Below, piece by piece: positions 6,370 through 58,523 of a stretch of DNA of 64,000 nucleotides (position 1 is the first letter of the stretch; every line of letters starts with the position of its first letter). The notes beneath the pieces are model-generated. The model had not been told where the DNA came from and did not search any database. It was given only the letters and a program-made list of their open reading frames with translations. Origin of the DNA: Chrysoperla carnea. Lineage: Eukaryota > Arthropoda > Insecta > Neuroptera > Chrysopidae. The stretch is from contig NC_058338.1 in assembly GCF_905475395.1 (NCBI RefSeq), positions 90,753,435-90,817,434 on the forward strand, given 5' to 3'. The position numbers and the translations under genes were made by a program.

Positions 6370-6805
6370 AAATGAACACCAAATTTGTGTCCTAATTTGC
6401 GCCCTGGTGGATAAACAGTGATGTTCAGGGTTCAGGAAAAAATGTTTTAAACAAAAGTTGTTTATTTTTTTATTAGGAACATTTTTTACGTTTAAACTTT
6501 AGTTCCATCTGTAACGATTTACAAGGAGGGTCCGTAGGACACCTATGTTGTTCATTTTACGAACTTAAACTCACTTTTTACGTTCTGAGCCCGCTATAAA
6601 AATTTCACTTTGATATCTATTTTCGTTTTTGAATTATCGCGCTAAAAGATAGACGGACATATCGGAAATGGGCTAATTAGGTGATTTTATGAACATTTAT
6701 AAAAAAATTTTGTTTGTATCATCAATATTTCTAAGCGTTACAAACTGGGAAATAAAATATATATACGTTGATATATATTTCATATATACAGTACAGGGTA
6801 TAATA
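6370..6805 (+). repeat. Family A repeat, degenerate copy (A2)
   Basis: Matches the central and right parts of family A (AAACAGTGATGTT, GTTGTTTATTTTTTTATTAGGAAC, ATTTCTAAGCGTTACAAACT) with many substitutions, so it is an old copy. Confidence 0.7.
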
Positions 6806-9552: not shown

Positions 9553-10116
9553 TTTTTATACCATGTATATATGAAATAGATCATAGTATATTAAGTTTAG
9601 TCCCAAGTTTGTAACGCCTAAAAATATTGATGCTACGAAAAAAATTTTGGTATAGGTGTTCATAGAATCACCTAATTATTCCATTTCCGGTTGTCTGTGC
9701 GTCTGTCTGCCCGTCCATCTATCAACACGATAACTTAAAAACGAAAAATCATATCAAGCTGAAATTTTTACAGCGTGCTCAGGAAATACAAAGTGAGGTC
9801 AAGTTCGTAAATGAGCAACATAGGTCAATTGGATTTTGGGTCCGTAGAACTCATCTTGTAAACTGTTAGAGATAGAGTTTCTTATAAAAAAATAACAACA
9901 TTTGTTTGAAACATTTTTTCGTAAACATTACTGTTTACCCGTGAGGGCGCAAATTATATAGTATGTATCATATGGGAATATCAGTTATGTTTGTGTGACA
10001 TGTATGTATGTGTAACGTGACTGTGTAATCTATACATGATATAGATTAAACGTGGTAAATAGTCTATACATGTTAATTCAACAATTCACTAAGTCAATTG
10101 TTTGTTTACTTGTTTT
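9553..10116 (-). repeat. Family A repeat, near full length (A3)
   Basis: Full architecture in reverse: TTTTTATACCATGTATATATG, then AACGCCTAAAAATATTGATGC, a GTCTGTCTGCCCGTCCATC microsatellite core, GTGAGGTCAAGTTCGTAAATG, TTTACCCGTGAGGGCGC, and an end in CAATTGTTTGTTTACTTG. Confidence 0.85.
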
Positions 10117-10404: not shown

Positions 10405-11690
10405 CAGGGTTCGAAAATATCCGATATTTATTATAAACATCAAAATATCGGATATTTTTTATATATATACGATATATATCAAAATTTTGATATTTAAAAA
10501 AAAAAAACTACAATGTTTTAAATGTTTTATTTACTTAGGCACTTCAAATCAGACAAATGAAACCAAAACATAAAATATTCTTCTAGATCAGGCAAAATCA
10601 ATTAAAAATCATAAAATTTTTATAAATAAAAATCAATTTTAAAACAAAAAACAATTTTATAAATTGTTATCAGTCAATGGTCATACCTACACTTAGGCAA
10701 CATAACAATAAACATTACAAATAATAACTCTAGAGTATAATCAATCTTTTAATTATCAAATCAGTCATCAGTCATTCGTAATAAACTGTTAATTATCAAA
10801 TAAAAAATAGGTCGTTTCATAATTGTGCTTGGTTTGACTGCAAGGAAGATAAAGCTAGATCATCTTCCGATTCTGAATCTTACTTTAACTTACTCTTTAG
10901 TAACGAACTTTTTCTGACACGACACGATTTGAACTTAGTATTAGTAGGTTTTAACTCTACTCCAAGGCCATCAAAATTGGGGAAGTAGAAATACAGTCAT
11001 AAACGCCAAAAATTACTAAATAATATTAAATTTTTATACCATGTATATATGAAATATACATAGTATTATAAGTTTAGGCCCAAGTTTGTAACGCCTAAAA
11101 ATATTGATGCTACAAAAAAAAATTGGTATAGGTGTTCATAAAATCACCTAATTAATCCATTTCCGGTTGTCCGTCCGTCCGTCCGTCTGTGGACACGATT
11201 ACTCAAAAACGAAAAGAGATATCAAGCTGAAATTTTTACAGCGTGCTTAGGACGTAAAAAGTGAGGTCAAGTTCGTAAATGAGCAACATGGGTCAATTGG
11301 GTCATGGGTTCGTAGTACCCATCTTGTAAACCGTTAGAGATAGAATAAAATTTAAATCTAAGAAATGTTCCTTACAAAAAATTAAACAACTTTTGTTTGA
11401 AACATTTTTTCGTAAACATCACTGTTTACCCGTGAGGGCGACAATTAGGGCGGAAATTTTATAATATGTACTATACTTGATTATCAGTTATGTATGTGTC
11501 ACATGTTGGTATATGTAATGTGATAAAGAAATCAACACTGACTATACATGGTATTTTAACAATTAACTCAGTCAATTGTTTGTTTTCACTTGTTTAAAAT
11601 CATTTTTGTATTGATATATATCATAAAAATTCACGTGATATATATCGGATATCATCATAAATATCCATTGATATATATCCTCGAACCCTG
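10405..11690. mobile_element. hAT-like non-autonomous element with 8-bp target duplication
   Basis: Begins CAGGGTTCGAAAATATCCG and ends ATATATCCTCGAACCCTG, inverted complements in the CAGGG style of hAT elements. It is flanked on both sides by ATTTAAAG (10397-10404 and 11691-11698), an exact 8-bp target duplication as expected for hAT. It interrupts a family E repeat, and itself contains a family A copy at 11031-11595. No transposase frame is visible. Confidence 0.85.
11031..11595 (-). repeat. Family A repeat, full length, nested in the hAT element (A4)
   Basis: Starts TTTTTATACCATGTATATATG and ends TCAATTGTTTGTTTTCACTTG. The core reads GTCCGTCCGTCCGTCTGTGG. It lies wholly inside the hAT element at 10405-11690, so it was inserted later or was carried along. 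Confidence 0.85.
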
Positions 11691-12628
11691 ATTTAAAGGT
11701 CAATGAAAAGCTCACTTTACGAAATCTAGGCACTCTTCGAAAAAAATTATCCAATAAATCTAATAAGAGTGTTGTTTTTCTATAAAGTACATTTTTGTTC
11801 AAAATGAATGAACAAAAAAACTAGATTTTTGATATCAATTACTAAACTATTCGGTTTACAAAAAAATATTTGCGTATTTATAAAGAATAACTTTCTAATT
11901 CCAAGCGTTCTAAAAAAATTCTACAACATATTTTCGAAAATCAAATAAATAGCGGTCGAAATACCGCCATAATCGTGTTGGCTTTTTAATCACTTCTAAT
12001 TTATTAAAAAAATAACGCAAGCACTGACATTCAACTCTTTCTATACAGAGGATTTCAACAGTTAACTCAGTCAATTGTTTGATTTCATTTGATTTTTTTT
12101 AATTACTATTTATTAATATTTCTTTCAGGCACAATTCCGAATTTGATAATAAATGTTATAATTAAACACAATTAGTACAAAAGTGTAAAATACTTATAAT
12201 TACTTTCATTGTAAATATGTAGCCACTAGGGTTAAATTAGTGTCATCTAGACGAGGTAAATATATGTATAGTACCATATGACATTTGAAAAACTAGATAC
12301 AGTTTCCAAGAGTATTATATTCGAATGCAGTGGGCGTATAACCTTAAACCATCCTATTTTAGAGTATATTATGAAAGGACATATAACTAATTTAAAAAAA
12401 ATTTTTATCTTATGAAATTGAACACCAGCCAAACTATTTATATTCCTTTGTTTTATGAAAATTGAAAATCATGTAAATAAATATGTTACAGGTTTTACAG
12501 TAATATTTTCTTTTTTCTTGAATGTCCAATATTCTATCCCCGAGGTCTTATTTCTATCTGAATTTTAAAGTAGTCTTGATTGAACGAAGCCTTAGAAATA
12601 ATAACTGAACTGATTTTAAATTTTCATT

Positions 12629-13050
12629 TTTACACCATGTATATATGACATATATCAAGGTGTTCTAAGCTTAGTCCTAAGTTTGAAACGCTTATATTAA
12701 TTATACGAACAAAATTTTGGTATAGTTGCTCATAAAAATATCTAATTAATCCACTTCCGGTTTTCCGCCTGTCTCTACGTTCGTCAACATGATAACTCTA
12801 AAGAAAAAAATAGAAACTTTTTATAGCGTCCTCAGAACGTAAAAAGTGAGTTCGTAAATGAGCAACATAGCAATTGGATCGGATTGGATAGAGCAATTGG
12901 ATCTTGGATTCGTCATCTTGTAGACTGTTAGAAAAAAAGTTTAAATGTAAAAAAAGGTTCCTTATAAAAAAATAAACAACTTTTGTTTGAAACATTTTTT
13001 CGTAAACATCAATGTCTACGTGTGAGGACGCAACTTAGGCCAAAGTTTTG
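12629..13050 (-). repeat. Family A repeat, degenerate partial copy (A5)
   Basis: TTTTTACACCATGTATATATG, TTAGTCCTAAGTTTG and AACTTTTGTTTGAAACATTTT mark the family, but the last third is missing. A separate fragment of the terminal block (TTAACTCAGTCAATTGTTTG) lies at about 12040-12090. Confidence 0.65.
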
Positions 13051-18338: not shown

Positions 18339-21300
18339 TCAATAAAAATCAATAGTACTTCGAACAACATAGAAACTCTTATCATCAATAATGGTATACA
18401 AATCACCCTTATAACGTTTCAAATCTGTTTTAGATCTATTTTCCCGATCTTCATACAATTTCAATATTACTGGTGGTACGGGTTTGATTTGTGCAATTTT
18501 TGATAAGTTATTGAAATATGCCCCTTGTAAATCACCTAATTGATGAAATTGTTTGACTGTTTGACCAAGTTTCATTCGCATTTCTTCTTCTCTTTCCTTG
18601 TCCATATACATTCGACGTTTTGTTGGGAATTTTGAAGGGTTTTTTAAATATTCGGTATAAAAACGAGCCTGGAAATAATGCAAATTAATTTAGTAAAAAT
18701 ACTTAGATACGAAAAAAAAAAAATTAAAAAATTATGGCAATAAAATTCAAATAATGCCACTATGTTTAAAATAATACAAAGTGTCTTTTTGAAGTTGACA
18801 TATGCATGAAACTCAAAAATAGCTTTTGTCGATAAAAATTCTTAGATGAAGACTTTAATTATTTTGCAAATTAGGCAAAAACGGATTAGGAAGTTTTACC
18901 CAAAATTGTTTCTTCGTATCAAAATTGTAATTTCGGATAATTGTTTCTGCGAACTCTAGGTAGTCTTCGAAAAAAAGTTTTCCAACAAATCCAATATAAG
19001 GACCAGATAGTGCAAAATTAAATGTTTTGGATTCTGATGACGTTGTAAAGTTAAAAAATTCGATTTTTTTGATAATAGAGACAAATTTGATCCGATTTTA
19101 TTGGAATTTTTTTTGAAACTCACTAATTTTGGGTCATTTTTTTCAGCTGTGATATCAGTTTGTCGCTAGCTATCATTTATGTGCTTAATTCCGGGACTAG
19201 GACTCCACATTCTTAAAACCCATTGGAGCTAGGTTAATTTTGATCACAAATTTGAAAAGTATGACCCAAATTTAGTAGAATTACATACTTGGTTTATCAA
19301 AATTGGATAAAATTTGAATGTGATAGAACAAAATTAAATTTTTAGGATTTTAATGACGTTATAAATTTAAAAAAGTCTACTTTTTTATAACACAGGCAAA
19401 TTTGATCCGATCTCATTGGATTTTTGTTTTGAAACCCATTAATTTTAGGTCATTCTTTTCAGTTGTAATGTCAGTTTTTCAGTAGCTATCACTCATGTGC
19501 TTAATTCCGGGACCAGGAATCCACATTCTTGAAATCTATTACATCTAGGTGAATTTTGATACCAAATTCGAAAAGTATGACCCCAAGTTAGTGGGATTAC
19601 ATACTTGGTTTATTAAAATTGGATAAAATTTGGATGTGATAAAGCAAAATTAAATTTTTTGAATTCTAATGGCGTAATAAGTTAAAAAATTCGATTTTTT
19701 TTGATACAACAGGTAATTTAACCGCATCTCATTGGAATTTTTTTTTGAAACCTACTAATTTTGGGTCATTCTTTTCAGCTACGATGTCACTTTTTCTCTA
19801 GCTATCATTTATGTGCTTAATTCCGGGACCAGAAGTCCACATTATTGAAATATATTAGAGCTAGGTTAATTTTGATCACAAATTCGAAAAGTATGTCCTA
19901 AAATTAGGAGGACTTCATACTTGGTTTATCAAAATTGGATAAAATTTGGATGTGATAGAGCAAAATAGAATTTTTTTTATTCTGATGACGCCATAAAGTT
20001 AAAAAATTTGATTTTTTTATAACACAGGCAAATTTGATCCGATCTTAATGGAATTTTTTTTTAAACCTACTAATTTTAGGTCATTTTTTTCAGCTGCTAT
20101 GCCACTTTTTCTCTAGCTATCATTTATGTGCTTCATTCGGGGACCAGGAGTCCACATTCTTGAAACCTATTAGAGCTAGGTTAATTTTGATCACAAATGT
20201 GAAAATTATGTCCTAAACTTAGCAGGATCACGTACTTGGTTTATCAAAATTGGATAAAATTTGGATGTGATAGAGGAAAATTAAATTTTTTTTATTCTGA
20301 TGACGCCATAAGGTTAAAAAATTTGATTTTTTTATAACACAGGCAAATTTGATCCGATCTTAATGGAATTTTTTTTGAAAACCACTTATAGCTCGACTAC
20401 CCGCTTTTTTATCGAATATGACTTCATAGCGATAAATATCAAACTCTTAACATTCATATTGACAATTATTTCACTTTCATTGTGAAACTGAATATGCCTG
20501 TATCAATTTTCAGATATAAAGGGTTTCGTAATTTGCGATAAAGTAAATATTACCTGCAAGTCTAGCGTAGGGAATATTGATGTAACATATGGAATACCCA
20601 TAAATCCCATAGTTGGATATTCAATATTTATAATATGCTTGTATAGTGGATTAATATAATCATTTTCAAATGTTAAACCTGATTCTGGAGTTAAAAATGG
20701 AAATGACATTTTGAAACCTTTGCAAAAAAAAAAAAAAAAATATTAATATTATTCTAAAAGTAAGACGAGAAGCATTGATTCTCTCGGGGGTCATGGATAT
20801 CAAGGCACGATTGTGTTATCCGTGACGCCACGAAGATAATACTTACCGGTACAATATAATATGGAATTCACATCTTCTGTACTTTCATCTTTAAAATGTA
20901 CACTTGAATTATCCACATAAGCTACATCAGGTTTTGAGATGACATTGTTTGGATAAAATTCACTTATATCGTATTTTAAATGATTACTCAAAAATACCTA
21001 AAATTGATTAATCTTAAAAAAGTGCCCATAAATGTTCCGCCTGCGATTAAATCTGGGATATGATTATTTTTCAAATCCTAGTGTGCTATTATAAATAATT
21101 ATATAAGATGATCCTTCAAGTTATAACAGCAACACTTGACAATTTTTCAATACGTTTATAACAAGAAAATGTCCTTTTTTAGATTCAAGGTATTAAAATT
21201 TAAAACAAAAAGTGAAAACAAACAATTAACTTACTAAATTGTTGAAATACCATGTATAGACAGTGTTGATGACTCTTATCTTACACATACATTAATGTCA

Positions 21301-24300
21301 CATATACATAAGTGTTATTCCCATATAATACATACTATACAATTTGCGCCTAATTCTCACCTTCACAGGTAAACAGTGATGTTTACGAAAAAATGTTTCA
21401 AACAAAAGTTGTTTATTTTTTTGTTGTTTTATTAGGAACATTTTTTACATTTAAACTTTGGTTCTATCTCTAAAGGCTTACAAAATGGGTCCTACAGACC
21501 CAAGACCCAATTGACCTATGTTGATCATTTACAAACTCGACCTCACTTTTTACGTCCTGAGTACGATGTAAAAATTTCAGCTTGATATCATTTTTCGTTT
21601 TTGACTTATCGAGTTGACAGACGGACAGACAACCGAAAATGGACTAATTAGCTGATTTTATGAATACCAATTAGTAGAGTGAAATTACGCCTTGTGTATG
21701 GATTAAAAGTTCGAGCAGTGAAACTTTGGGGTTTTTCTTTTCACATCAAAATAAGTATTTTTTGAAATTTTTTACTTTCTCGGAGTGGTGCAACATGTTT
21801 AAAAAACAAAATGGCGTCAAGAATGAAATTTTTTTCAGAAATTTTATCATTTTTATTTTATATTCGCAAAAGGAGGCATCGGTGCATATCCTAATTTGGT
21901 AGGTTTGTAGTCCATGTTAAGAACTACTCCTCATAATTTTTTGGTGGGGTTTCGTCCCTTCCCCTCCCAGTTATATATATATGTATACATACATATGGTA
22001 AAACAGTTCATTTGACTATAACTTGAAAAATATTCGATTGATTTTAATGAAACTAATATCAATAGTAGATTTTATTACTTACAACTTTCGGTTAAAATTT
22101 TAGCGAAATCCGTTAAATAGTTCGGCCAAAATTTCCAATTTAGGGAATTGTTTAAAATGGCTGCCATTTTATGCCATTTTGTCCTACGAGGTTAAATTTT
22201 TTTTTAAATTGTAGCATTTTTTATTATCTTTCGATTTTATAATAAGTGGCTTACCCGTAAAATGACTCCTTGATCCATATTTTTGCGAAAAACGGAAAAT
22301 TTAACACTTTCTGGAAATAATTGTTTGGGGGGGTGTATGGGGGGTGTTTTTTGCTTTGGCATGAGAAAACTATTTTTAAAAGAGGTCTATATGGTTTAAA
22401 GCAAAATTTTTAAGTTTTAGCCCCCGCGCTGTAAGGGGGAAGGGGTGTATGAAATAAATGTATTTTAAAAGATTTTAAAAAGAGGTCAAAATTGTTTAAA
22501 ATGCTAAAGTAACCCAAAATTTTAGATGCTTTTATTAATATAGCACCTTTTACAACATCCACCCCTTCCCCTCCCGCTTTCCTATTTTTTGCAAATTCAA
22601 AATTTGTATGACGTATAAAGGGGTTTTTGGGGTCGCTGATCTCGAACTTTTGGCCCAAATAAGTACACCCCCTAAAAATATTACAATTGTTTTTGATAAT
22701 CTATTGCAAAATTCGAGATCAGCGACCCCAAAAACCCCTTTATACGTCATACAAATTTTGAATTAGCAAAATATATGAAAGCGGGAGGGGAAGGGGTGGA
22801 TGTTGTAAAAAGTGCTATATTAATAAAAGCATCTAAAATTTTGGGTTACTTTAGCATTTTAAACAATTTTGACCTCTTTTTAAAATCTTTTAAAATACAT
22901 TTATTTCATACACCCCTTCCCCCTTACAGCGCGGGGGCTAAAACTTAAAAATTTTGCTTTAAACCATATAGACCTCTTTTAAAAATAGTTTTCTCATGCC
23001 AAAGCAAAAAACACCCCCCATACACCCCCCCAAACAATTATTTCCAGAAAGTGTTAAATTTTCCGTTTTTCGCAAAAATATGGATCAAGGAGTCATTTTA
23101 CGGGTAAGCCACTTATTATAAAATCGAAAGATAATAAAAAATGCTACAATTTAAAAAAAAATTTAACCTCGTAGGACAAAATGGCATAAAATGGCAGCCA
23201 TTTTAAACAATTCCCTAAATTGGAAATTTTGGCCGAACTATTTAACGGATTTCGCTAAAATTTTAACCGAAAGTTGTAAGTAATAAAATCTACTATTGAT
23301 ATTAGTTTCATTAAAATCAATCGAATATTTTTCAAGTTATAGTCAAATGAACTGTTTTACCATATGTATGTATACATATATATATAACTGGGAGGGGAAG
23401 GGACGAAACCCCACCAAAAAATTATGAGGAGTAGTTCTTAACATGGACTACAAACCTACCAAATTAGGATATGCACCGATGCCTCCTTTTGCGAATATAA
23501 AATAAAAATGATAAAATTTCTGAAAAAAATTTCATTCTTGACGCCATTTTGTTTTTTAAACATGTTGCACCACTCCGGGAAAGTAAAAAATTTCAAAAAA
23601 TACTTATTTTGATGTGAAAAGAAAAACCCCAAAGTTTCGTTGCTCGAACTTTTAATCCATATAACAGCCTTTTTTTGCTTAGATTTACTCCAGTAAATAC
23701 CAAAATTTTGTTCATAGTATCCATATTTTTAAGCGTTACAAACTTGGGACTAAACTTAGTATACCTTGGTATATTTCATATACATGGTATAAAAACTGGA
23801 ACGAAAAAAGTAAGTCCAGTAAGTGCTGCTTCGAAAAATTTATGATTTGGTGCTCCAAGCATGGGTATATTGTTTAACGTTGATAAACTTGAATTTTTTC
23901 TCGAAACGGAGTGATATTTTGGCTATGCTAATAAAAAGTACCTGCATGATCGAGCTTTACTCGGTAGGTATTTTTTGAGTTAAAAAGACACAAAATTTAT
24001 CACTGATATAAAAACCGTTTCCATACAAATACCAATTTGAATGTCCCGAGAATCACACCAGCCATTTATCAACCAAAACTGACATGGCCACACGGACCGC
24101 ACAATATAAAATACATACGAAACGAACCACATACAATGTATATACTCGCCAATAGATGCCTTGAAGAGTCATATTTTGCAGTTTATGTTTCGGTTTTTCC
24201 TGAAAACACGGATGAAATGACGTTTTCTAAAAATAAAACCTAGCTAGATAGATTTTTCGCCCCAAAAACCCCTCTGTAACTAAATGTCATGAAAATTGTT

Positions 24301-27300
24301 TCCTTGATTTCAATTATATACATATTATACAGAAGAAAATTCCACAGTCTGTATCCAGAAAAGAACGCTTTCTCGGGTGTAAGAGTAATGAAAAATTGTC
24401 AATATTTTAACATTTTCTATCATTTGATGAAGTCCTACTGTTATAACTTGGACCATCCTGCTGAAATCACCTTATCAGCAGCTTCACTTAGATGATATGT
24501 GATATCCAATCCAGACGCTCCGGCGCCTATCACCAAAACTTGATCATTTTCAAATGGTTTTGGATTTCGATAATCATGACTGTGTAGTTGTTTTCCTTCA
24601 AAAGTTTCTATCCCTTTCAAATGGGGATATTTTGGTACGCTACGACGACCATTTGCAATTATAACTGCATCGAATTCATATACTTTTTCCTCCTTCGTTT
24701 GAAGATCCAGAGAAATTATTTCCCATCTATTGTTTGCAATAGGTTTCACTTTCTTCACATGATTGTAAAACTAAAAAAAAAAAAGGTTCGGTGAAACATA
24801 TTTGATTACTGACAGTGTTGAATCTACACTGGGGGCACTAGAAACTAGTGACCAGCGCGGCGAAGTGCGGCAAAATTAAGGATATGCATTTTTTTTTAGC
24901 GTTATCGAAAAACTTTAAGTGTGCTCGTTTTAAAATATAAACAAGTGAAAACAAACATTTGACTGAGTAAATTGTTGAAATACCATGTATAGGCAGTGTT
25001 GATTACTTTGTCACATTACAATTACAGACATACATGTCACACATATGTAGCTGATATTCCCATATATAATACATATTCCCATATTATACAATTTGCGCTT
25101 TCACGGGTAAATAGTGATATTTACGAAAAAATGTTTCAATCAAAAGTTGTTAATTTTTTTATAAGGAACATTTATTACATTTAAACTAATTGTTCTATTT
25201 CTAATGGTTAACAAGATGGATCCTACGAACCCAAGACCCAATTGACCTATGTTGCTCATTTATGAACTCGACTCCACTTTTTATGCCATAAGCTCGCTAT
25301 AAAAATTTCAGCTTGATATATTTTTTCGTTTTTTAGTAATCGTGATGACAGACGGGCAGACAGACAGGCAGACGACAGACAAACAACCGGAAATGGATTA
25401 ATTAGATGATTTTATGAACACCTATACTAAAATTTTGTTCATAGTATCAATATTTTTAACCGTTACAAACTTGGGACTAAACTTAGTATACCTTAGTATA
25501 TTTCATATACATGGTATAATAAATAACAACCAGTTCGACTCGTGCGGAATTCTGGATTGCGGTATTCGTGGTTAAAAACATGCCAAAGAAATAATATACA
25601 GGATGCCTTTTTAAGTTGATATATGCTTGAAACTCGAAAAATAACTTTTATCGATAAAAATGCTTCAAGAAAAAAATGTTGGGTCTATATAATCGCACAT
25701 CTTACGCAGGCATTAAACTTGATTCGGGTTTTCAGGCTCAATGAAAAGCTCACTTTATTTCCTACCTGAAAAGTTGTTATTGATCAAAAAGAAAACATTT
25801 TTTGTAAATCGTACAGTTTTTATCCAAAAACAGACTCAAAATTGTTTTTCGTATAATCGTTTCTGTAAATATAAATCCAATAAAACTGATTTGTTTTTCT
25901 ATAAAGCCCAATTTTGTTCAAATTGAATGAACAAATGCACAAAAAGCAAAATTTTTGCTACCAATTACTGTCTAAACAATAGGCATTTCAAGGAACAGCT
26001 GTTTTCGTTTCTTTACTCAATTTATGATATAGGTAATGGGGCGGAAGGTATCACGATGCCCCAAGGCGGCACTTAAGGAAAATCTAACTCCGATTACTGA
26101 ACTCTTAAAATTCAATTTTGAAGGAGCGTGCAATGAATGAATCAAACAGTGCTTGAAGTATGAGAGATCTTTAATGACATCTGGATCAAATACCTCTGCT
26201 ATAATTTAGGAGGGGGTCACCATTGAGACTTTAGACCTTAGATCTATAAGTACTGCGATTCTTTCTTTAGGAATAACAAGTAGACAAAAATGAGACTCTA
26301 TTCAGAACAAAGATACCGCCGGAAAATTACAATGAGGGATCTACTCATGATTTCCGGTCACTTTGAAATATCTTCAGGTGTCAGTTTATGTTATTTGCAA
26401 ATGAAGCTATAAGACGGTGGGCAGAGGTAACGTAGAACGCTTAAAATTTCATTAATGTCTCAAAAGAATGTAGACTTCTTTATGTGAATTTAACAGATAG
26501 ATATAAAAAGATACTTACGTACTTTTATATGTTTCTTTAAGTCAAAATGATCAGCGAACGCATGAAGATATTTTAACACGTCTTCATGGTTAACATACGA
26601 TGTAAAATTGTATGATGTTATATTGTTTGGATAATCTGGAATACTCATCATTTGTATAGGTACATTCGATCTAAAAATTACCATATGATTCACTATTATT
26701 ACAAACAAACAAAAATTTAAATAAACAAGTGAAAACAAACAATTGACTGAGTTAATTGTTGAAATACCATATATAGACAGTGTTGATTACTTTGTCACAT
26801 TACACATACATACATGTCACGTCACTGATATATATATATTTAACTGATATTACCATATAATACATACTATACAATTTGAAGTAAGAGTTTTTTAAATTTT
26901 TTTGTAATGAAAATTTATTAAAACATTTTGGTTGTAGTTAATTCACTGGCTTAACCGGCTCAGTAGTCGAGCGGTCTAAGGCGTGAGTCTTTGACCGTTT
27001 GGCTACTGACCGGGAGGTTGCGAGTTCGAATCCAGGCAGGGGCAGTGTAAACAAATTATAATTAATGGGAGGTGCAGAATTGATCACATTGTCCACCCAC
27101 ATCATAAACTGTAATTGTATATATGTAGTTAAATAAATAAAGATTAACAAATAGTGATGTGGGTGGCCTCTGGTAAGGCATATGTCAGAGATAAATTTCG
27201 ATTTTTGCCCCAATTTCCTAGATCAGTTTTTTGTATTTTTAAAATACGTATTTTCGACTACCAAGTAGTCATCATCAGTAAGAATTAGCTAGTGAATGTT

Positions 27301-30300
27301 ACTCTTTGCTAATTTGGTGGCGGACTGCACGTGCAAACTGCAGTCCGCCACTAACTGAGCCGGTTAAGCCAGTGAATTAACTACAACCAAAATGTTTTAA
27401 TGAATTTTCATTAAAAAAAAATTTTAATTGCACATGCAGTCCGCCACGTTAGCAAAGAGTAACATTCACTAGCTAATTCTTACTGATGATGACTACTTGG
27501 TAGTCGAAAATACGTATTTTAAAAATACAAAAAACTGATCTAGGAAATTGGGGCAAAAATCGAAATTTATTTCGACATATCCTAGAGTTCTCATTTATTA
27601 TCTTCGAGAATATTTATATATGTCAGAGAAACGGAGGTTAAAGCCCATTATTATCATTATTATTATTACTACACAATTTAGGGATCCAAGACCCAATTGA
27701 CCTATGTTGCTCATTTAAGAAATTGACCTCACTTTTTACATCCTTAGCACGCTATAAAAATTTCAGCTTGATATCTCTTTCCTTTCTAGTTATCGTGATG
27801 ACAGACGGACAGACAGACGACAGAAAGACAGACAACCGGAAATGGACTAATTAGGTGGTTTTATGAACACCTATACCAAAATTTTTTGCTTAGCATCAAT
27901 ATTTTTAAGCGTTACAAACTTGGGACTAAACTTAGTATACCTTGGTATATTTCATATACATGGTATAAGGTACATAAAAACTGTTTATTGTTTAAAATTA
28001 AAGAATAATTTTTGCTATAAGTCTCTCATACTTGACTATAAGCAAAAGCTTGAGGCGCTCCGAATCATTCTTGATATTTTAAAATGAGCGCCTCTATCTT
28101 TTACGAATAGCCAAAAATGAGTACAATAAACTTTTTAGTACAATAAAAGCAGCTTATTCCTTAGAAGTATTTTTTATTTAGTTTTAAATTTTAAAACGTT
28201 TTTAGTTTTAAACTTTTAATGAATTAAAAATAGCCATGAACACTTTTCGGTAGAAAAACTATAATAGAAGTGTTTATAAATCAATTAAATTTCATAAGGT
28301 TATCAAATGGGTTAAGATCAACCTTATAAGCCGTCTCTTAGACTATTTATTCAAATTAATTTTGCTGTTATTTACGCAGTTACATTTTATCAAGCAAATT
28401 ATTTTATATACATATAGGTGCGCAACAATACAGTCATATGCACCTTAATAAGTGTGTCAAGTGTATACAGAATGTTCGTTTGACATCTAGGCATATAAAT
28501 ATCACGAGTATAACAGAGTACATGAGTTAAGCAATTTATCTAAATAAGAGGTATTATAGGTGTTATATGAAATTGCAAAAGTGACTTGTATCGTGGATTA
28601 TCTGTTGTAATTCATCTATTCAACTAAGAAACTCCCACTCTCCAAGCCTCTTACAACTATCTCAACGCATATCGAAGCTTCAACACATGCATATAATACC
28701 TCTCACTTTAAGATGCTTTGCTTAACGCACATATTCTGTCATACTCCTGATATTTATATGCCTAGATGTATACCGAACATTCTGTATATGAAATTGAAAT
28801 CACGGATTATTTTGTTTTTTTTGATATTCACATTCCGCTGCACTTCACTTCATTTCTATGCCACTATGCCACTACATTTTACAATTTTCTCAAGGATAAA
28901 TAAATGCCCGAAGGAAACTTTTCGATGCACGTTTGTTCAAATATAATAAAAAATCTATCGTTTGAGTGTTATCCGTTGATCCGTTTAGTTCGCTTAACGA
29001 AGTTCCCAAAAAATCACGTTTTGTTAGGATCATCTTTAAATTGACTCTCAAAATTTATAAACACGTAAATTTTTTAATAGGTACCCCTTACGATGTTAAA
29101 TTTATTGATTTGAGGTGTTAAAGTTTGCGTTTTTAATATGCAAATCCTATATTGTAGTGTTTTTAAAGGTATGTATTTTCAGAATCCACCCTTAAAATTT
29201 GAAACTCAAGTCTCAAATATGTGCATACACTCATTTTTTTGGGAACGTCCTTAAGGAAACTGTTTCATTAAAAATTTTCAAAAAATCAATTTTTTTACAT
29301 TATAATATTGCTATAAATAGTCTTAAATAAATTTCAACTTGAAAAAAAGTTATAGCTTTAAACGTGTAACTTTAAACATTGTTTTTCTTAAAAATACGTT
29401 TTCAAACTGATACGACGTTATTCTCCTAGTCTACGAGACCGATCTTTAAAAATCAAATGGTGCGTTTATGAAATTTTTAGACAAACGTTTATAAAAACCA
29501 TAAAAATAATACAAAAATTACTTTTTAAAGGTTTGTTGTCTGACTTTCAGTTTGATTCTAAACATTTTGCATTACAAAAAAAATTTTTTAAGGAGGTCAG
29601 TTAAGTGTCACATCCCAAAAGAAAATATCGGAGTTATCCTGATATTTAATCCAGTTTTTCCCAGGTAGTTTTTTTAACATTGTTGTTTGCTATTGGCATT
29701 GTGTCAGAAAAATGTAAAAATTTTTATACTTATTAAAGCGGTTCGACTGTCACGTGACTCGGCTGTCAATTAGTCAACTGGGCAATTTTTATGACGTAAA
29801 TATAGTAAAATGCTCATAAAATATCGTAAACTAGGAAATTAGTCTGACGTAAATGTAATAAAAATAAAATGCTCTAAAGATATCGCAAAGCGTCAAAAAC
29901 TAAAGTTTTTCCTTTTTTCTTTTTGGAAAGCGCTGTAATGTAATGCTTCTTTTTTTTTTTCATAAACAGAATTTATTATTTATTATTAAAACTTTTTTGA
30001 AGCTCATTCATCCATTAATTTTTGTACAATTAACATTATTGTGAGTTCTTACATGAGATACTATGTTAAAAATCACAATTTTAAAATGAAATAATTCAAA
30101 ATTTTGTCTCGCAAGAGGCCCCAAAACTGTGTTTATTGTGATCAAGGGACTGTGAACTATCATTTACCACAAAAAAATGAACATTCACCGTATTTGCTCA
30201 AACAGCCGACCTACTTTAATATAAAAAAAAAAAAGAATGCATAAATTGAATACCTTAATCCTTCATATAAACTTGAATGTACGGGTAATCCAAATTCATC

Positions 30301-35792: not shown

Positions 35793-38700
35793 TCAATAAA
35801 ATTCAATTTTACTTCGAACCACTGTAAAGTTTTCATCATCAATAATATTATACAAGTCACCACGATAATGTGCTAATTCTGATTTGGCTCTATTTAATCG
35901 ATCTTCGTATATTTTAAAATCTACCGGTCGTATATTTTTTATTTGTGCAATTTTTGATAAACTTGTGAAATATGCGTCATTTAAATCAGCTAATTGATGA
36001 AATTTATGCATTTTTCTACCAATTTTCCTTAGTAATTCCTCATCTTTCTGTTTTTCCATATACATTTGATGTTTTCTTGGAAATTTTGATGGGTTTTTTA
36101 AATATTCAATATAAAAACGTGTCTGGAAATAATATTTTATATCTACACTGTAAAATAAAGTACCAAGAAATATGTTTTTAACATGGTAGCAAGTAAATAT
36201 TTTTTTGAATTAAGTACTGATATCGTTGAGTCAAGAAATATTTACTTGTTATAAGGACCGATAGACGTATTTTTTTACTGTGTATTTACAGTGGCGGATT
36301 TGCATCGGAAGGCGCGATTTTTTGCCACGAAATACAAAGCAGTCTTAATCATATTAGGCGCCCTTCTCATGTAAATAACCTAAACTTCTTAAATTTTGCC
36401 ACACTTTAAATGTTGTCGTTCCTTAGTTCAGGCCTCACAAAAGTAATCCTAAATCCGCTTCGGTGTGTTTATATTAATCAGTCTAGTTAAAATAATCTGC
36501 CCAATCGGTAACATTTCGCGGATTAATTACAGTACCTTGATAATATTAGGTTAAAAAGGAAATAAATCCAAAAGACTTGCTCTTTTAGGATTTGATAGAG
36601 ATTAGAGTATGTTATTAGAGCCTAGAATTCTCCAAAAGATTAAGTAAATTTTATTCTCTGAATTTGTGAACGTTTTGTTGCAAAATGGGAACGACAATGA
36701 AGCTACACCCAAGGAGCGCCGTTAAGAGTACTAGATTCTATTAAAATTGGGAATTGCTATAAAATTGGCGGACATACTTAAAGAATTTAAAGAATTGGCG
36801 GGTCCCTTGTGGAAATAAATCTTTTTTGCTAAACTTTGAGCATAGTTTAGCTTGCTTACATTTTCGAAATTATGGTCCTCACTGATTATTTCATTTTTAT
36901 ATTAAATATATGGTCATTCGCACAAGAGAAATGTTGACATCTTGTGTATATATATTATATTGAATATTCGATCACTCTTCAGAGCTTATAAATAAATCAA
37001 AAAAACTCTATTAATGTGTTAAATTTATATAGAAATTTTCCCTATAACATAAGTTTTATTCATCGTCATATTATCGTAAACTAAAAATTTTTATCGAATT
37101 ATTCGTCATTCGTAATAAAAAAAGTAAATCGTAAAGTAAATCGAAAAATTTTTCTTGTCCCAGAATTTGATAAAACTTAGTTCACAAGGTAATTTAGAGC
37201 CAAATTCAAAAATCGGCTTCATTTAGCGATTGGGGTAGTATAGTTTCAGAGAAAAACGATATCCCGGATCGATTTTCGACGTTATCTCGAAAACTAATCG
37301 TCCAAATGTTAAATAAATTTGATTTTTTATTTTTTTTGGTCAAAATTAACCCATAACACGAGTTTTATTCAAATCGAAAACAAAAAAATTTCTGGAATTC
37401 GTACCTATTTTTTAAGACAAAATCGAAAAATTGTTCTTGTTACAGAATTAGACTAAAAAAATTAAAAAAACCGTGTTCATTTGGCGATTGGGATAGTAGT
37501 TTCGGAGAAAACGTCGACATCATATGTATTCAATATTCGATCACTCTGGTTTCTCTTCAGAGCTAATAAATAAATCAGAAAAACTCTATTAATGTGACAT
37601 ATTTTAAATTTTACTGAATTCTGAAAAACTCTTACTTTAATTAGGTAACTAAGTTTTCATAAAATCTCTGATTAACTAATCTTAAAAAAATTACATTACC
37701 TGCAAATCTAATAAATTGAATATGACCGTATGGAACGGTAATCCGATTATGGCCATAGTTGGATGTTCAATATTAATTATCTGTTTATACAGAGGCTTAA
37801 CATACTCGTTTTCATATGTTAGGCCTGCTTCAGGAGTTAAAAATGGAAATGTAAGTTTGTAACCTTAACAAAAACACAAAATAAGTATTAGTTTAATAAT
37901 TCTAGGAAAGAAACGTCATTGATTCGTTAGGCCAGGGATGGCGAGCCAATGGCACTTATACTTTTGATGGCTCGCGACACAATATATAAAAGTTCACTAT
38001 AAAGTACCTTTTTTCTCACGAACGAACGCGAGTATTCTACCGCGCACTTGGTTGTAATTGTAATAGGTAGGGTATTCTACTATATTCGAAAAAGTAGATC
38101 AAAAGGTTCATTTTCATAATAAAAACCCACACAGAAATATATTTCAGCAAAATAAACAAACTTTCTTGCCATAAAATTAAACTAAATTAATAAACCTTTT
38201 TTATTCCCGCAAAAACGCTGTCAGCCATTTTGGTGACGTAATATTGGTAAAGACAGTCGTGTGTGTAATTATTATATGTATAGATAAAGTTAATGGTAAT
38301 ATAACCTACAATTACTATGAAAGCCATCATTACCTACCTATATGATGTCACGTCATGGTGGCTCGTGATTTAGGTCACGTGATATACAGATTAAAAATTG
38401 TGACTTTTAATTTCAATATAATAAAACTATAATGTGCTTTTATGACTCAAATAAGAATATTTAATACAAATTTTAATTTTTATCAAATTTCATAATTTAT
38501 TTTCACTACCGAAAGTACCCTATTACATCGTGGATTACAATTGGCATTTTGAAACAAATACGAATCCGTTAATCAAAAAAGCAAACCATAGAAAAAGGAA
38601 TTAATTGCATGTGCAATAAAAAACAGGAAGAAGAAAGTAAACAGTCGACGTCTATGATTAAATATGATGGTAAAAATTGGCATAGGAGCGCGGTAAGTTA

Positions 38701-42702: not shown

Positions 42703-43268
42703 TTTTTATACCATGCATATATGTAATATGCAAGGTATTCTAAGTTTAGTCCAAAGTTTGTAACGCTTAAAAATAATGATGCTAGGGAAAAAATTTTGTC
42801 ATAACTGTTCATAAAATCACCTAATTAGTCCATTTCCGGTTGTCCGTCCGTCCGTCCGTCTGTGGACACGATAACTCAAAAACGAAAAAAGATATCGAGC
42901 TGATATTTTTACAGCGTACTCAGGACGTAAAAAGTGAGGTCGAGTTCGTAAATGAGCATCATAGGTCAATTGGGTCTTGGGTCCGTAGGATCCATCTTGT
43001 AAACCGTTAGAGATAACACAAAAGTTTAAATGTAAAAAATATTCCTTATAAAAAAATAAACAACTTTTGCTTGAAACATTTTTTTGTAAACATCACGGTT
43101 TACCCGTGAGGGCGCCAATTAGGCGGAAATTTTATAGTATGTACCATACTTGAATATTAGTTATGTATGTGTCACATGTTTGTATGTGTAATGTGATAAA
43201 GAAATCAACACTGACTATGCATGGTATTTTAACAATTAATTCAGTCAATTGTTTGTTTTCACTTGTTT
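42703..43268 (-). repeat. Family A repeat, full length (A10)
   Basis: TTTTTATACCATGCATATATG to CAATTGTTTGTTTTCACTTG, core GTCCGTCCGTCCGTCTGTGG. One of the least diverged copies. Confidence 0.88.
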
Positions 43269-47500: not shown

Positions 47501-50500
47501 GGATTAAGTCTAAATCAATTTTTAAAAGGTCACGGAGGGAGGGGGTGTTGCCCGATTATCTTAATAAATAATTGACTTCAAAAGTAGACATATTTAATAT
47601 GCCTACTTATGGTAAAACGGCAGATGGATATATTTTCATAGATTTCTCCAAAACTAGTCGGTAAAAATAAAAAAAAAAACATTTAAATTAAAATTTTAAT
47701 AAATTATTCAAAACATAAAAAAAAACCCGGCTAATTAAGGATGTACAAACACGGTAGTGAAGACACAAATTTAAAAAAATAATATGTTTCCTATTTTGAT
47801 GGTGAATTATGTTATAACTTGACAATAGAAGACGAAAAATAAGAATGAAATTTTTCTATATCTGGAGTAATTTTCAACATATCGAAAATTGAAACTTTTT
47901 TTTAGTTATTTAGCTTTCGTTATATCGAAAACCAAGGCAGATATCGGAAAATTTTATTCATATTTTTCGTTTACATTCATGAAGTTGTAACAAAATAAAT
48001 CATCAAAGTTTAAAATATGGTACAAATAATTTCAACCACAAGTCTAAACTTGTCTTGGCGCTCGTACTACCTTCAAGTAACTCGGAGAAATAGGTCCAAT
48101 CTGATGTCAGAACAAGTTTTCCGCCATCAAACTCTGCTACTTTTGTTACCTGTTTTGGATTGATTAACTACAAAACGAGCTATTATCCGTAATATATTAA
48201 AATGGCCACCCTGTAAGTTTATCTTGTATACTTTTTTATACCATGCATATATGTAATATGCAAGGTATACTAAGTTTAGTCCCAAGTTTCTAACGCTTAG
48301 AAATATTGATGCTATGAACAAAATTTTGGTATAGGTGTTCATAAAATCACCTAATTAGTCCATTTTCGGCTGTCTGTACATCTGTCTGCCAACACGATAA
48401 CTCAAAAACGAAAAAAGATATCAAGCTGAAATTTTTACAGCGTATTCAGGACGTAAAAGGTGAGGTCGAATTCGTAAATGAGCAACATAGGTCAATTGGG
48501 TCTTGACTTATGGGTCCATAGAACCCATCTTGTAAACGTTAGAGATAGAACAAAAGTTTAAATGTAAGAAATCTTCCTTATCAAAAACTAAACAACTTTT
48601 GTTTGAAATATTTTTTCGTAAACATCACTGTTTACCCGTGAGGGCGCAAATTAGGCGTAAATTGTATAGTTGTATTATTTGGGGATATCAGTTATGTATG
48701 TGTAATGTGATAGAGTAATCAACTCTGTCTATGCATGGTATTTCAACAATTAACTTCAACAATTTCAGTCAATTGTTTGTTTTCACTTGTTAATTCCGAA
48801 CATTTAGACTAAATGACTTGCTTATATCATATATGCTTGAAATATTAATATACTTGTCTAAAACATTTCGTTGGTGGACTTTTATTTTCCCTACCCACAA
48901 ATCATTGGCACTGTTCAATTTATTCTGCAGTAATTTCATTCCTTCAAAAGTATTTTAAACTTAAGTTACCCAAACTATCTCCTTTTATGCTTAAGAAATA
49001 TTTCTGGAAGGAATTCCATTTCATGTATTTCAAATTACCTTTGCATTTGCCCATGGAAATAATATTCCCAAAGTAAACACTCCGAGTAAAGGACCTGACG
49101 AAATTGAAGATATGGCATCGTATAACTAAAAATAAAATTATAAGAATTGAAAATTAAAAACTATTTTCCACTAGAAAATGACATACCGGTAATACTTGTC
49201 CGAATTTTTCCACTATTCCAGCTAAACCAACTATAACAATTCCTGCTACAAAAACCACTGTTTTAACAATAATTTGTTCTTGTTTTGGTGATAATTTTCT
49301 AAAAATTGGCTTAAAACAATCTTCTAAAATCACAGCTGACAATGAATTTAAGCCACTTGATAAAGAGCTAAGTGATGCACTAAGAACACCTGCTAAAAAT
49401 ATTCCAGAAGCGCCTGGAAAATCTTTTAATGTGTCAACAACTAATAATGGTAAAAGTTGATCTCTTTCAGATACAATCTGAAAAAAAAAAATTTAACCAG
49501 TTTTTTAACTATTTTCTAAAAATAAGTTTACGTTTTGCTTACTTTTGTTGAAATAGGATCACAATTGAAATAAGTTGCAAAAATAATCAGACCTAAGGAA
49601 GTACATAATCCTATAAAAATTGTTTTAACTATCAAAAATAACCACACTACCCTAAAAACAAATTAGACAATATGATTTTTAAACCGACGAAACGTTTTAT
49701 GAAATTTGTTATTAAAACTGAAAAAGAGTTTATCAATAACTAAAGCTTAGGGCATTTAATTCTTACATCGTGTAAAATCGGCAAAGTTTATTTCTTAAGA
49801 CAAATAACGATGTATACAGGATGTTCTCTAATTGATCCTGGAAAACTTTAATATGAAATTAAGCTCATTCAGACGAACAAAAAAGCTCTTAACCAAATTT
49901 AGATCTGATGTGCCCTTTCATCAATTTGACGAGTGGAGAAAATTCAAAACAAATTGATAGACACTTCGATTTTCTATATATACTATGCTAATAAAATTAA
50001 ATAGAATAAAGATAAGTTCAATTTAAAGTTCTAGCTGAAGTATTTCTGCACTTTTTCTGTTTTTTTCAAAATTTTTGCAAGTTTTTCTGAAATATGGTTT
50101 TGTTTTTCTAGAATCTTTCACAAAACCTTGTTGAAGTTAACCTGATAAAAATCAACACACTTTTTTTTGTAGTTTTAGAGAAAATGGGCACCAAAGTTTT
50201 TTCCTAAGTTGCGCCGTCGCGGGTAAACAGTGATGTTTACGAAAGAATGATTCAAATAAAAGTTGTCAATTTTTTTATAAGGAATAACTTTTACATTTAA
50301 ACTTTTGTTCTATCTCTTATGGTTTACACGATGGATACTTTTTCATTTGATTGAATGAGCAACAAAATTCCATTTTAAAATTGTGCATATTTCGATCAAC
50401 TTTGAAGCTAGAAAGTCGAAAAAAAACGAAAATGTGCACAAATACTTCAACTTTTAATTGAACTTTTTTTTACTTGATGCAAAGTTTTTTTATACTTTTC

Positions 50501-57666: not shown

Positions 57667-58178
57667 ACAAGTGAAAACAAACAATTGACTGAGTTAATTG
57701 TTGAAATACCATGCATAATCAGTGTTGATTTCTTTATCAAATTACACATACAAACATGTAATTGGCGCCCTCACGGGTAAACAGTGATATTTACGAAAAA
57801 ATGTTTCAAACAAAAGTTGTTTAATTTTTGATAAGGAACATTTTTTTCATTTAAGCTTTTGTTCTATCTCTAACGGTTTACAAGATGGGCCTTACGGACC
57901 CAAGACCCAATTGATCTATGATGCTCATTTACGAACTTGACCTCACTTTTTACGTCCTGAGTACGCTGTAATAATTTCAGCTCGATATCTTTTTCGTTTT
58001 TGAATTATCGTGTCCACAGACGGACGGACGGACGGGCAACCGGAAATGGACTAATTAGGTGATTTAGTGAACACCTATGACAAATTTTTTTCCTAGCATC
58101 ATTATTTTTAAGCGTTACAAACTTGGGACTAAACTTAATATACCATGTATATTTCATATACATATACATGGTATAAAA
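57667..58178 (+). repeat. Family A repeat, full length (A14)
   Basis: AACAAGTGAAAACAAACAAT to ATATACATGGTATAAAA, with the core CAGACGGACGGACGGACGGGC. It abuts the foldback at 56929-57645. Confidence 0.87.
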
Positions 58179-58523
58179 AGTTTCCCATATAACTTAGCTA
58201 GATATAATAAAAGCTATAATAAAAGTTTCCAATAACTTAGCTAAACACCCTGTATATTATTCATACCTAGATATAAATCAACAATACTTTGTAAGTTTGT
58301 ACTCTAAGTGTGAGTTGTAAGTGCAATGCTTAAAGTTTCGAAAGATTACAAAAGGATTTACTTTCACGGTAAGTTATAGGATATGAAGGCTCTAGAAATT
58401 ATGATAGTTGAAAATAAACAGCAAAGAATTATGAAAATAAATATTTATTCCATTGATATAATGTACACAATATACACAATAAAGGATTGAAATCGCATTG
58501 TTTATAAACGTATTTTCGGGCAG

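Follow-up and report, generated by a model that had tools for sequence, protein, structure and literature searches.

The palindrome at positions 21672..23695 (plus strand) of the window, a 64,000-nt stretch of the genome of the green lacewing Chrysoperla carnea (C2:90753435-90817434), is very probably a copy of a non-autonomous transposon, a long palindromic, foldback-like MITE whose arms are copied one from the other, and whose loop is inverted, after insertion. We searched the whole genome (559.5 Mb in 337 contigs) for further copies and compared their ends, arms and loops.

The palindrome and its insertion site

The copy in the window is 2,024 bp long, the commonest full length in the family being 2,044 bp. 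Inverted-repeat detection paired 21682-22650 with 22708-23676, a match of 969 nt that is 98% complementary with 57 nt between, and the arm core of this copy has two differences in 851 aligned columns, which bears out the near-perfect 2-kb palindrome described in the initial annotation. The asymmetric loop, there given as 65 bp, is 57 nt long (22651..22707) and lies in the orientation that we call flip. The left arm is at 21697..22650 (plus strand) and the right arm at 22708..23661 (minus strand). The outermost 25 bp on the left (21672..21696, plus strand) and 34 bp on the right (23662..23695, minus strand) are not arm sequence; they are two distinct conserved tips, one found at the left end and the other at the right end of all 55 full-length copies described below (55/55 for each). 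The two tips share a resemblance (TAGTAGAGTGAAAT, TACTGGAGTAAATC) like that of short imperfect terminal inverted repeats; the termini of the element are TAGT/TACT. The right end at 23695 is thus as first annotated, and the left end lies one base further in than the 21671 then given. The palindrome is far above chance expectation; within 21000-24400, the inverted pair listed next in length measures 34 nt and itself falls inside the palindrome, and the other longest inverted self-matches of the window, among the 20 top matches, have partners at least 6 kb apart with 80-91% identity. The unit had been described as lacking a transposase, and indeed its three longest open reading frames (79, 82 and 96 aa) have no Pfam match at E 0.01.

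Three FMO-type minus-strand frames surround the palindrome in profile order (26493-26786, 24444-24770 and 20506-20742, the last of these weak), which places it within an intron of an FMO gene. The exon upstream of that intron (24444..24770, minus strand; an open frame, splice sites not set) matches PF00743 with E 2.2e-17 over profile positions 121-210, and the downstream exon (20506..20742, minus strand; also an open frame) matches PF00743 weakly, with E 0.0043 over profile positions 325-387, under the curated cut-off. Insertion inside a family A repeat, as initially described, is confirmed by the two flanks, which are parts of one family A copy, the insertion target: the left part at 21401..21668 (plus strand; 21401 is the start of the query and not the end of the repeat) and the right part at 23699..23795 (plus strand, from similarity to family A). 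Copies of family A lie on either strand of the window, at least ten in its 64 kb, and have a GACAGACGGACAGAC-type stretch; pairs of them align over up to ~500 bp. They are at 6450-6786, 9553-9876, 11031-11397, 12627-12987, 21401-23795, 25141-25522, 27683-27968, 42703-43069, 48233-48603 and 57809-58179. A tandem array with a 316-bp unit (4.4 copies, 19006-20386) adjoins the FMO exons, and the sequence by the break of a copy of the element consisting of the left arm only (L025) resembles this array. Two related minus-strand open frames lie ~17 kb apart at 18342-18689 and 35793-36209 (YFQARFYTEYLKNPSKF and YFQTRFYIEYLKNPSKF); these are perhaps exons of duplicated genes, and the frame at 18342-18689 has no Pfam match.

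The target-site duplication is the triplet AAT, at 21669..21671 and 23696..23698. Both tips are present at 67 of the 75 places that we examined (the window and 74 fetched copies; the eight without both tips are L011, L025, L027, L028, L037, L051, L059 and L064), and an exact 3-bp duplication flanks 65 of these 67, L020 and L033 being the exceptions. Longer exact flank matches among the 67 are of 4 bp in two copies, 6 bp in none, 7 bp in two and 8 bp in none. The triplets are AT-rich and of no single type, with TAA in five and TTA in four of 65 and others such as ATA, TAT, TCC, AAC and GAT. With a single AAT between them, the joined flanks read ATGAATACCAATACCAAAA, and this sequence aligns ungapped at the junction with the family A copy ATGAACACCTATACCAAAA; against all eight other family A copies of the window that were tested, this 3-bp model of the empty site outscores an 8-bp model, which requires a 6-bp gap in the displayed family A alignment. 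The initial annotation had proposed an 8-bp duplication, AATACCAA, and a hAT-like mode of insertion. Since the 3-bp empty site fits better, we read AATACCAA as a chance match to a near-repeat that the family A target itself contains, and with exact 8-bp duplications in 0/67 copies, against 3 bp in 65/67, we reject hAT membership.

Abundance and decay of the family

An exact 30-mer from the left tip occurs at 385 places genome-wide, an exact 35-mer from the right tip at 343 and an exact 30-mer from the arm at 437, and the reversed control of each occurs at none; a first-look arm search returned 1,089 candidates, of which 40 places were scored. The copies are dispersed over C1-C5 and smaller contigs. 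Searching the genome with the arm for other copies had been suggested as a check, and the hundreds of dispersed copies with target-site duplications support a mobile palindromic insertion that lacks a transposase of its own. Long palindromes are classic sources of artefacts, so an origin of this one in assembly or library preparation, for example as a fold-back chimaera, has to be considered. We give it next to no credence, because the arms differ, the flanks on either side come from a single copy of family A, and many copies have the same anatomy. The arms differ by substitutions and the tips differ from each other; target duplications are exact in 65/67 copies; and 600-bp outer flanks are without mirrored similarity in 64/67 two-tipped copies, and in the others (L014, L058 and L067) the mirrored stretches are short, 47-172 bp at 86-96% identity, and not in register with the element. 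In addition, the source assembly, inChrCarn1.1, was built with 40-fold PacBio HiFi long reads (PMC10116181).

Many copies are incomplete. Of the 100 left tips that come first in coordinate order along C1, 72 have an exact right tip no more than 30 kb away; the spans of these 72 pairs are 2,030-2,060 bp in 39 cases and shorter in 33 (436-2,024 bp, six of them at least 1,998 bp), and none is longer. The 28 unpaired left tips include full-length copies with an altered right tip, such as L061. Among 20 places on C1 that we read in coordinate order, passing over three retrieved earlier, nine copies are full length, eight are clearly shortened and three lack the right tip. The missing part spans the centre in 8/8 of the clearly shortened copies, which retain their tips and target-site duplication. 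The palindrome had been predicted to be prone to deletion in cloning and assembly; these copies, together with the 33/72 paired copies shorter than 2,030 bp, support such deletion in nature.

We did not find a transposase-bearing copy: from the first 100 of the 385 left tips, no exact right tip is met at a distance of 2,060 bp to 30 kb, and L022, which is described below, is alone among the 67 two-tipped copies in exceeding 2,060 bp. The tails of seven broken copies, inspected by eye for frames of at least 80 codons, contain none that looks like a partner transposase. Beside L011, a copy with only the left arm, a 455-codon open frame on the minus strand after position 1691 resembles, on inspection by eye, a Ty1/copia reverse transcriptase. 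Four copies that have the left arm alone (L011, L025, L027 and L028) end at query positions 964-981. We make no claim of preferred breakage at the apex because the search that found these four favoured long matches, and L051, L059 and L064, from the coordinate-ordered sample, break at 84, 483 and 278. There is no sign of a second family with the same tips, since matches to their first 14 bp are near control counts (right tip, six places versus two for the reversed control; left tip, three versus two). The palindrome has no match in a phage collection, and one 29-bp arm pattern has no exact match in viral contigs. At C1:114972357-114972580, two left tips stand back to back, ~165 bp apart and facing outward, which reflects either two neighbouring insertions or a rearrangement.

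The initial annotation also expected the transcribed unit to form a very long hairpin. The computed fold of the intron RNA is indeed a near-perfect hairpin, with -1076.9 kcal/mol for 1,351 nt, and on the basis of this model the palindrome may plausibly be a source of endogenous siRNAs. It is conceivable that the palindrome is an hpRNA locus kept by selection as such a source, with selection for pairing maintaining the identity of the arms; its position within the FMO gene and the computed fold are in keeping with this, but there are hundreds of dispersed copies, many of them decayed, and an Rfam search of the palindrome gave no family match, and we judge this explanation very unlikely. We saw no sign of a host function in Rfam or in Pfam matches of the three longest open reading frames; the intron of the FMO gene is simply one of hundreds of insertion sites.

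Probable copying between the arms and inversion of the loop

We compared the arm core (columns 60-948 of 1,073) in 55 full-length copies. Thirty-one of these (the window and 30 others) are among the copies most like the left arm of the window and are thus a biased set; nine came from the places read on C1, and a further 15 C1 places were chosen solely for full-length tip spacing, such that none of the 24 added C1 copies was picked by arm similarity. Arms differ by 0.67% within a copy versus 2.05% between copies for all 55, and by 0.51% versus 2.65% for the 24 added C1 copies. In a quick tree with midpoint rooting, 48/55 copies have their own two arms as sisters. Of the variants among the 55 copies, 182 are confined to a single arm and 151 are private to the two arms of a single copy; 14 occur in one arm of each of two copies and 93 in at least three arms. 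Arms at the same locus are thus more alike than arms at different loci and share private variants, as in a palindrome with arm-to-arm gene conversion, with L019 as an exception. By contrast, the tips are 27% different within copies versus ~1-1.5% within each tip type (31 copies), which indicates that the tips are not homogenised.

Arm-to-arm copying would be unnecessary if the family were young and its subfamilies had spread with arms that already matched. The trees are nearly star-like and the copies ~2% apart, as such a history would predict; against it stand the 151 private both-arm variants versus 14 in two copies, and a 10-bp deletion present in both arms of the window copy and unique in the genome, which contradicts it unless the deletion happened twice. 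We regard this history as extremely improbable. The deletion lies within 22317..22354 of the left arm (plus strand) and 23004..23041 of the right arm (minus strand), and its junction, allowing at most one mismatch, occurs at two places genome-wide, one in each arm of the window copy. Three of the six both-arm substitutions of the window copy adjoin the deletion and are one event with it.

Including this deletion, we traced a single both-arm variant per copy through the genome for five copies, and in 4/5 the variant is confined to its own copy; those of L039, L040 and L031 have exactly two matches each, one per arm. The variant of L019 has ten matches at six places, in both arms at four of them, which indicates that some both-arm variants were inherited through transposition and not made on site. 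The arms could instead be equalised during transposition itself, if every new insertion derived from one arm alone, as might happen when a single-stranded intermediate is copied through a hairpin; variants in both arms would then predate insertion and variants in one arm would postdate it. The spread of the L019 variant is consistent with this, as are the presence of only both-arm private variants in L039 and L031 and of only one-arm variants in L016. However, four of the five both-arm variants are absent from other copies (although a donor that has moved away could also explain this), in the first 31 copies both classes of variant are somewhat clustered along the arm (p = 0.035), and in L022 a mirrored copy of the local flank indicates copying that postdates insertion. 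We therefore consider assembly from a single arm unlikely.

L022 begins with a CTA target-site duplication, followed by the left arm, the loop and a right arm whose end is a left tip in mirror image. Beyond this tip is a 374-bp inverted copy of the element's own left flank (372 identities, one mismatch and one gap), and then a 111-bp remnant of the right end, with the right tip and the second CTA. The simplest reading of this single case is that, once the element had inserted, its right arm was synthesised anew with the left arm as template, that synthesis overran the left tip, and that the new end was joined to the old right end within A-rich sequence; the event and the enzymes behind it are deduced from the arrangement of the copy. 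Since L022 carries a mirrored copy of its own flank, arm-to-arm copying acted after insertion at this locus, and the copy looks like a fossil of that process.

Assuming unbiased copying in which half of the events erase a variant, we estimate roughly that per-site copying outpaces mutation by a factor of ~140 (31 copies) to 320 (24 copies), which is probably an overestimate because some both-arm variants are inherited. GC bias of the both-arm variants, as expected under biased gene conversion, is not significant in the 55 copies (p = 0.20; 0.07 with the first 31), and neither is their position along the arm (p = 0.12; 0.01 with the first 31). We therefore dropped the idea of conversion biased towards the apex and towards GC.

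The loop is found in both orientations, with 26 flip and 29 flop among the 55 copies (13 and 11 among the 24 C1 copies). Orientation changes 21 times on the tree of copies versus 18.6 times for shuffled labels, and two close pairs, L072/L082 (support 100) and L045/L083 (support 93), have opposite loops. Inversion thus recurs and is no mark of subfamilies. Near the loop, orientation retains some association with sequence, given that four of the 28 variants common to at least four copies lie near the loop and track the flip orientation (uncorrected p 0.02-0.04). Exchange between the arms would be the simplest cause of the inversions. Along C1, loop orientation forms 12 runs in 33 copies, with a shuffled mean of 17.5 (one-sided p 0.04, noticed post hoc); this clustering is probably chance, or perhaps reflects local hopping.

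We propose that a transposase acting in trans would cut and insert the element, as its tips and target-site duplications suggest, by recognising two distinct short tips, TAGTAGAGTGAAAT... and TACTGGAGTAAATC..., and making the 3-bp duplication. The interior is one ~0.95-kb sequence present as two inverted copies around the 57-nt loop. After insertion, one arm would template repair of the other, as the shared private variants and L022 suggest, and exchanges between the arms would invert the loop, which would account for the two orientations observed. Copying tracts would normally stop inside the arms; the tips would stay different because the DNA outside them is non-homologous and copying would end within the arms. 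The centre has been lost in many copies. A stronger version of this model, which we advance tentatively as a possibility, is that exchange is continual: the loop would be at flip/flop equilibrium, the arms would be overwritten at about a hundred or more times the mutation rate, and repair of hairpins or cruciforms, rather than transposition, would keep the element palindromic and mobile. Loop orientation would then be expected to differ between haplotypes, and perhaps between reads from one animal.

Relation to known elements

In structure, the family belongs with long-TIR MITEs or foldback-like elements, having dispersed copies, inverted arms, a precise target-site duplication and no transposase frame. 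PIF-Harbinger elements make a 3-bp duplication of the TWA type; the lacewing family matches these in the length of the duplication but not in its sequence. Elements of the P superfamily have a P-type transposase and a 7-8 bp duplication (7 bp in Galileo), and we exclude the family from this group, since exact 7-bp matches occur in 2/67 copies versus 3-bp matches in 65/67. Foldback elements of Drosophila (FB) have 9-bp duplications and repeated arm units. The profile PF07592, which we take to be that of the Zator/ISAzo13-group transposases, has no match in the lacewing genome, but control genomes are likewise without a match, which makes this absence uninformative.

Published descriptions of other groups allow further comparisons. 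Zator/ISAzo13 elements have a 3-bp duplication (PMC10045372), and the length therefore fits that group too; the wider PHIS group has no duplication or one of 1-4 bp (PMC10045372). CMC/Chapaev3 elements are defined by 5'-CAC...GTG-3' termini and a 3-bp TWA duplication (PMC4079192), and we reject this assignment for a family with TAGT/TACT termini in which TAA and TTA are the duplication in only five and four of 65 cases and the rest are other triplets. IS3EU/GingerRoot elements have TA..TA termini and usually a 6-bp duplication (PMC10045372); the termini of the lacewing family fit but an exact 6-bp duplication is found in 0/67 copies, and this group is also rejected.

The closest parallels that we found are in behaviour and layout. 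Galileo, a P-superfamily element of Drosophila, has terminal inverted repeats (TIRs) that are 98-100% identical within a copy, and a repair model has been proposed in which one TIR is the template for the other and copying continues past its end, so extending the TIR (PMC3573991). Like Galileo copies with two TIRs, the lacewing element is non-autonomous and has two long inverted arms that are near-identical within a copy. The TIRs of Galileo are internally repetitive and transposase-bearing copies are known, whereas the lacewing family has a 3-bp duplication, both loop orientations and no autonomous copy that we could find. Long inverted arms also dominate foldback elements (Drosophila FB, Tetris and Tm1). 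In the large palindromes of mammalian sex chromosomes, gene conversion keeps arms more than 99% identical (PMC8981503); the lacewing palindromes differ from these in having 1-kb arms and in being dispersed over C1-C5 and smaller contigs. Among the open-licence papers that our searches listed, we found no description of this family, no named match for its superfamily, and no account of free loop flipping in a dispersed transposon. The class of element is known; within it, the lacewing family and its documented behaviour are a form that we have not seen described.

Long palindromes are fragile and are sites of gene conversion and, to our knowledge, the well-studied natural ones are few, each unique and often on a sex chromosome. 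In the lacewing, one sequence with 1-kb arms is present in hundreds of dispersed places, as insertions with target duplications of their own. L022 provides a concrete case in which one inverted arm was probably rebuilt from the other and extended, a step that has been proposed for the growth of TIRs. Replication of this kind should make it possible to measure from existing long reads how fast arms are converted, loops inverted and centres deleted, making the lacewing family a natural experiment on how chromosomes handle long palindromes.
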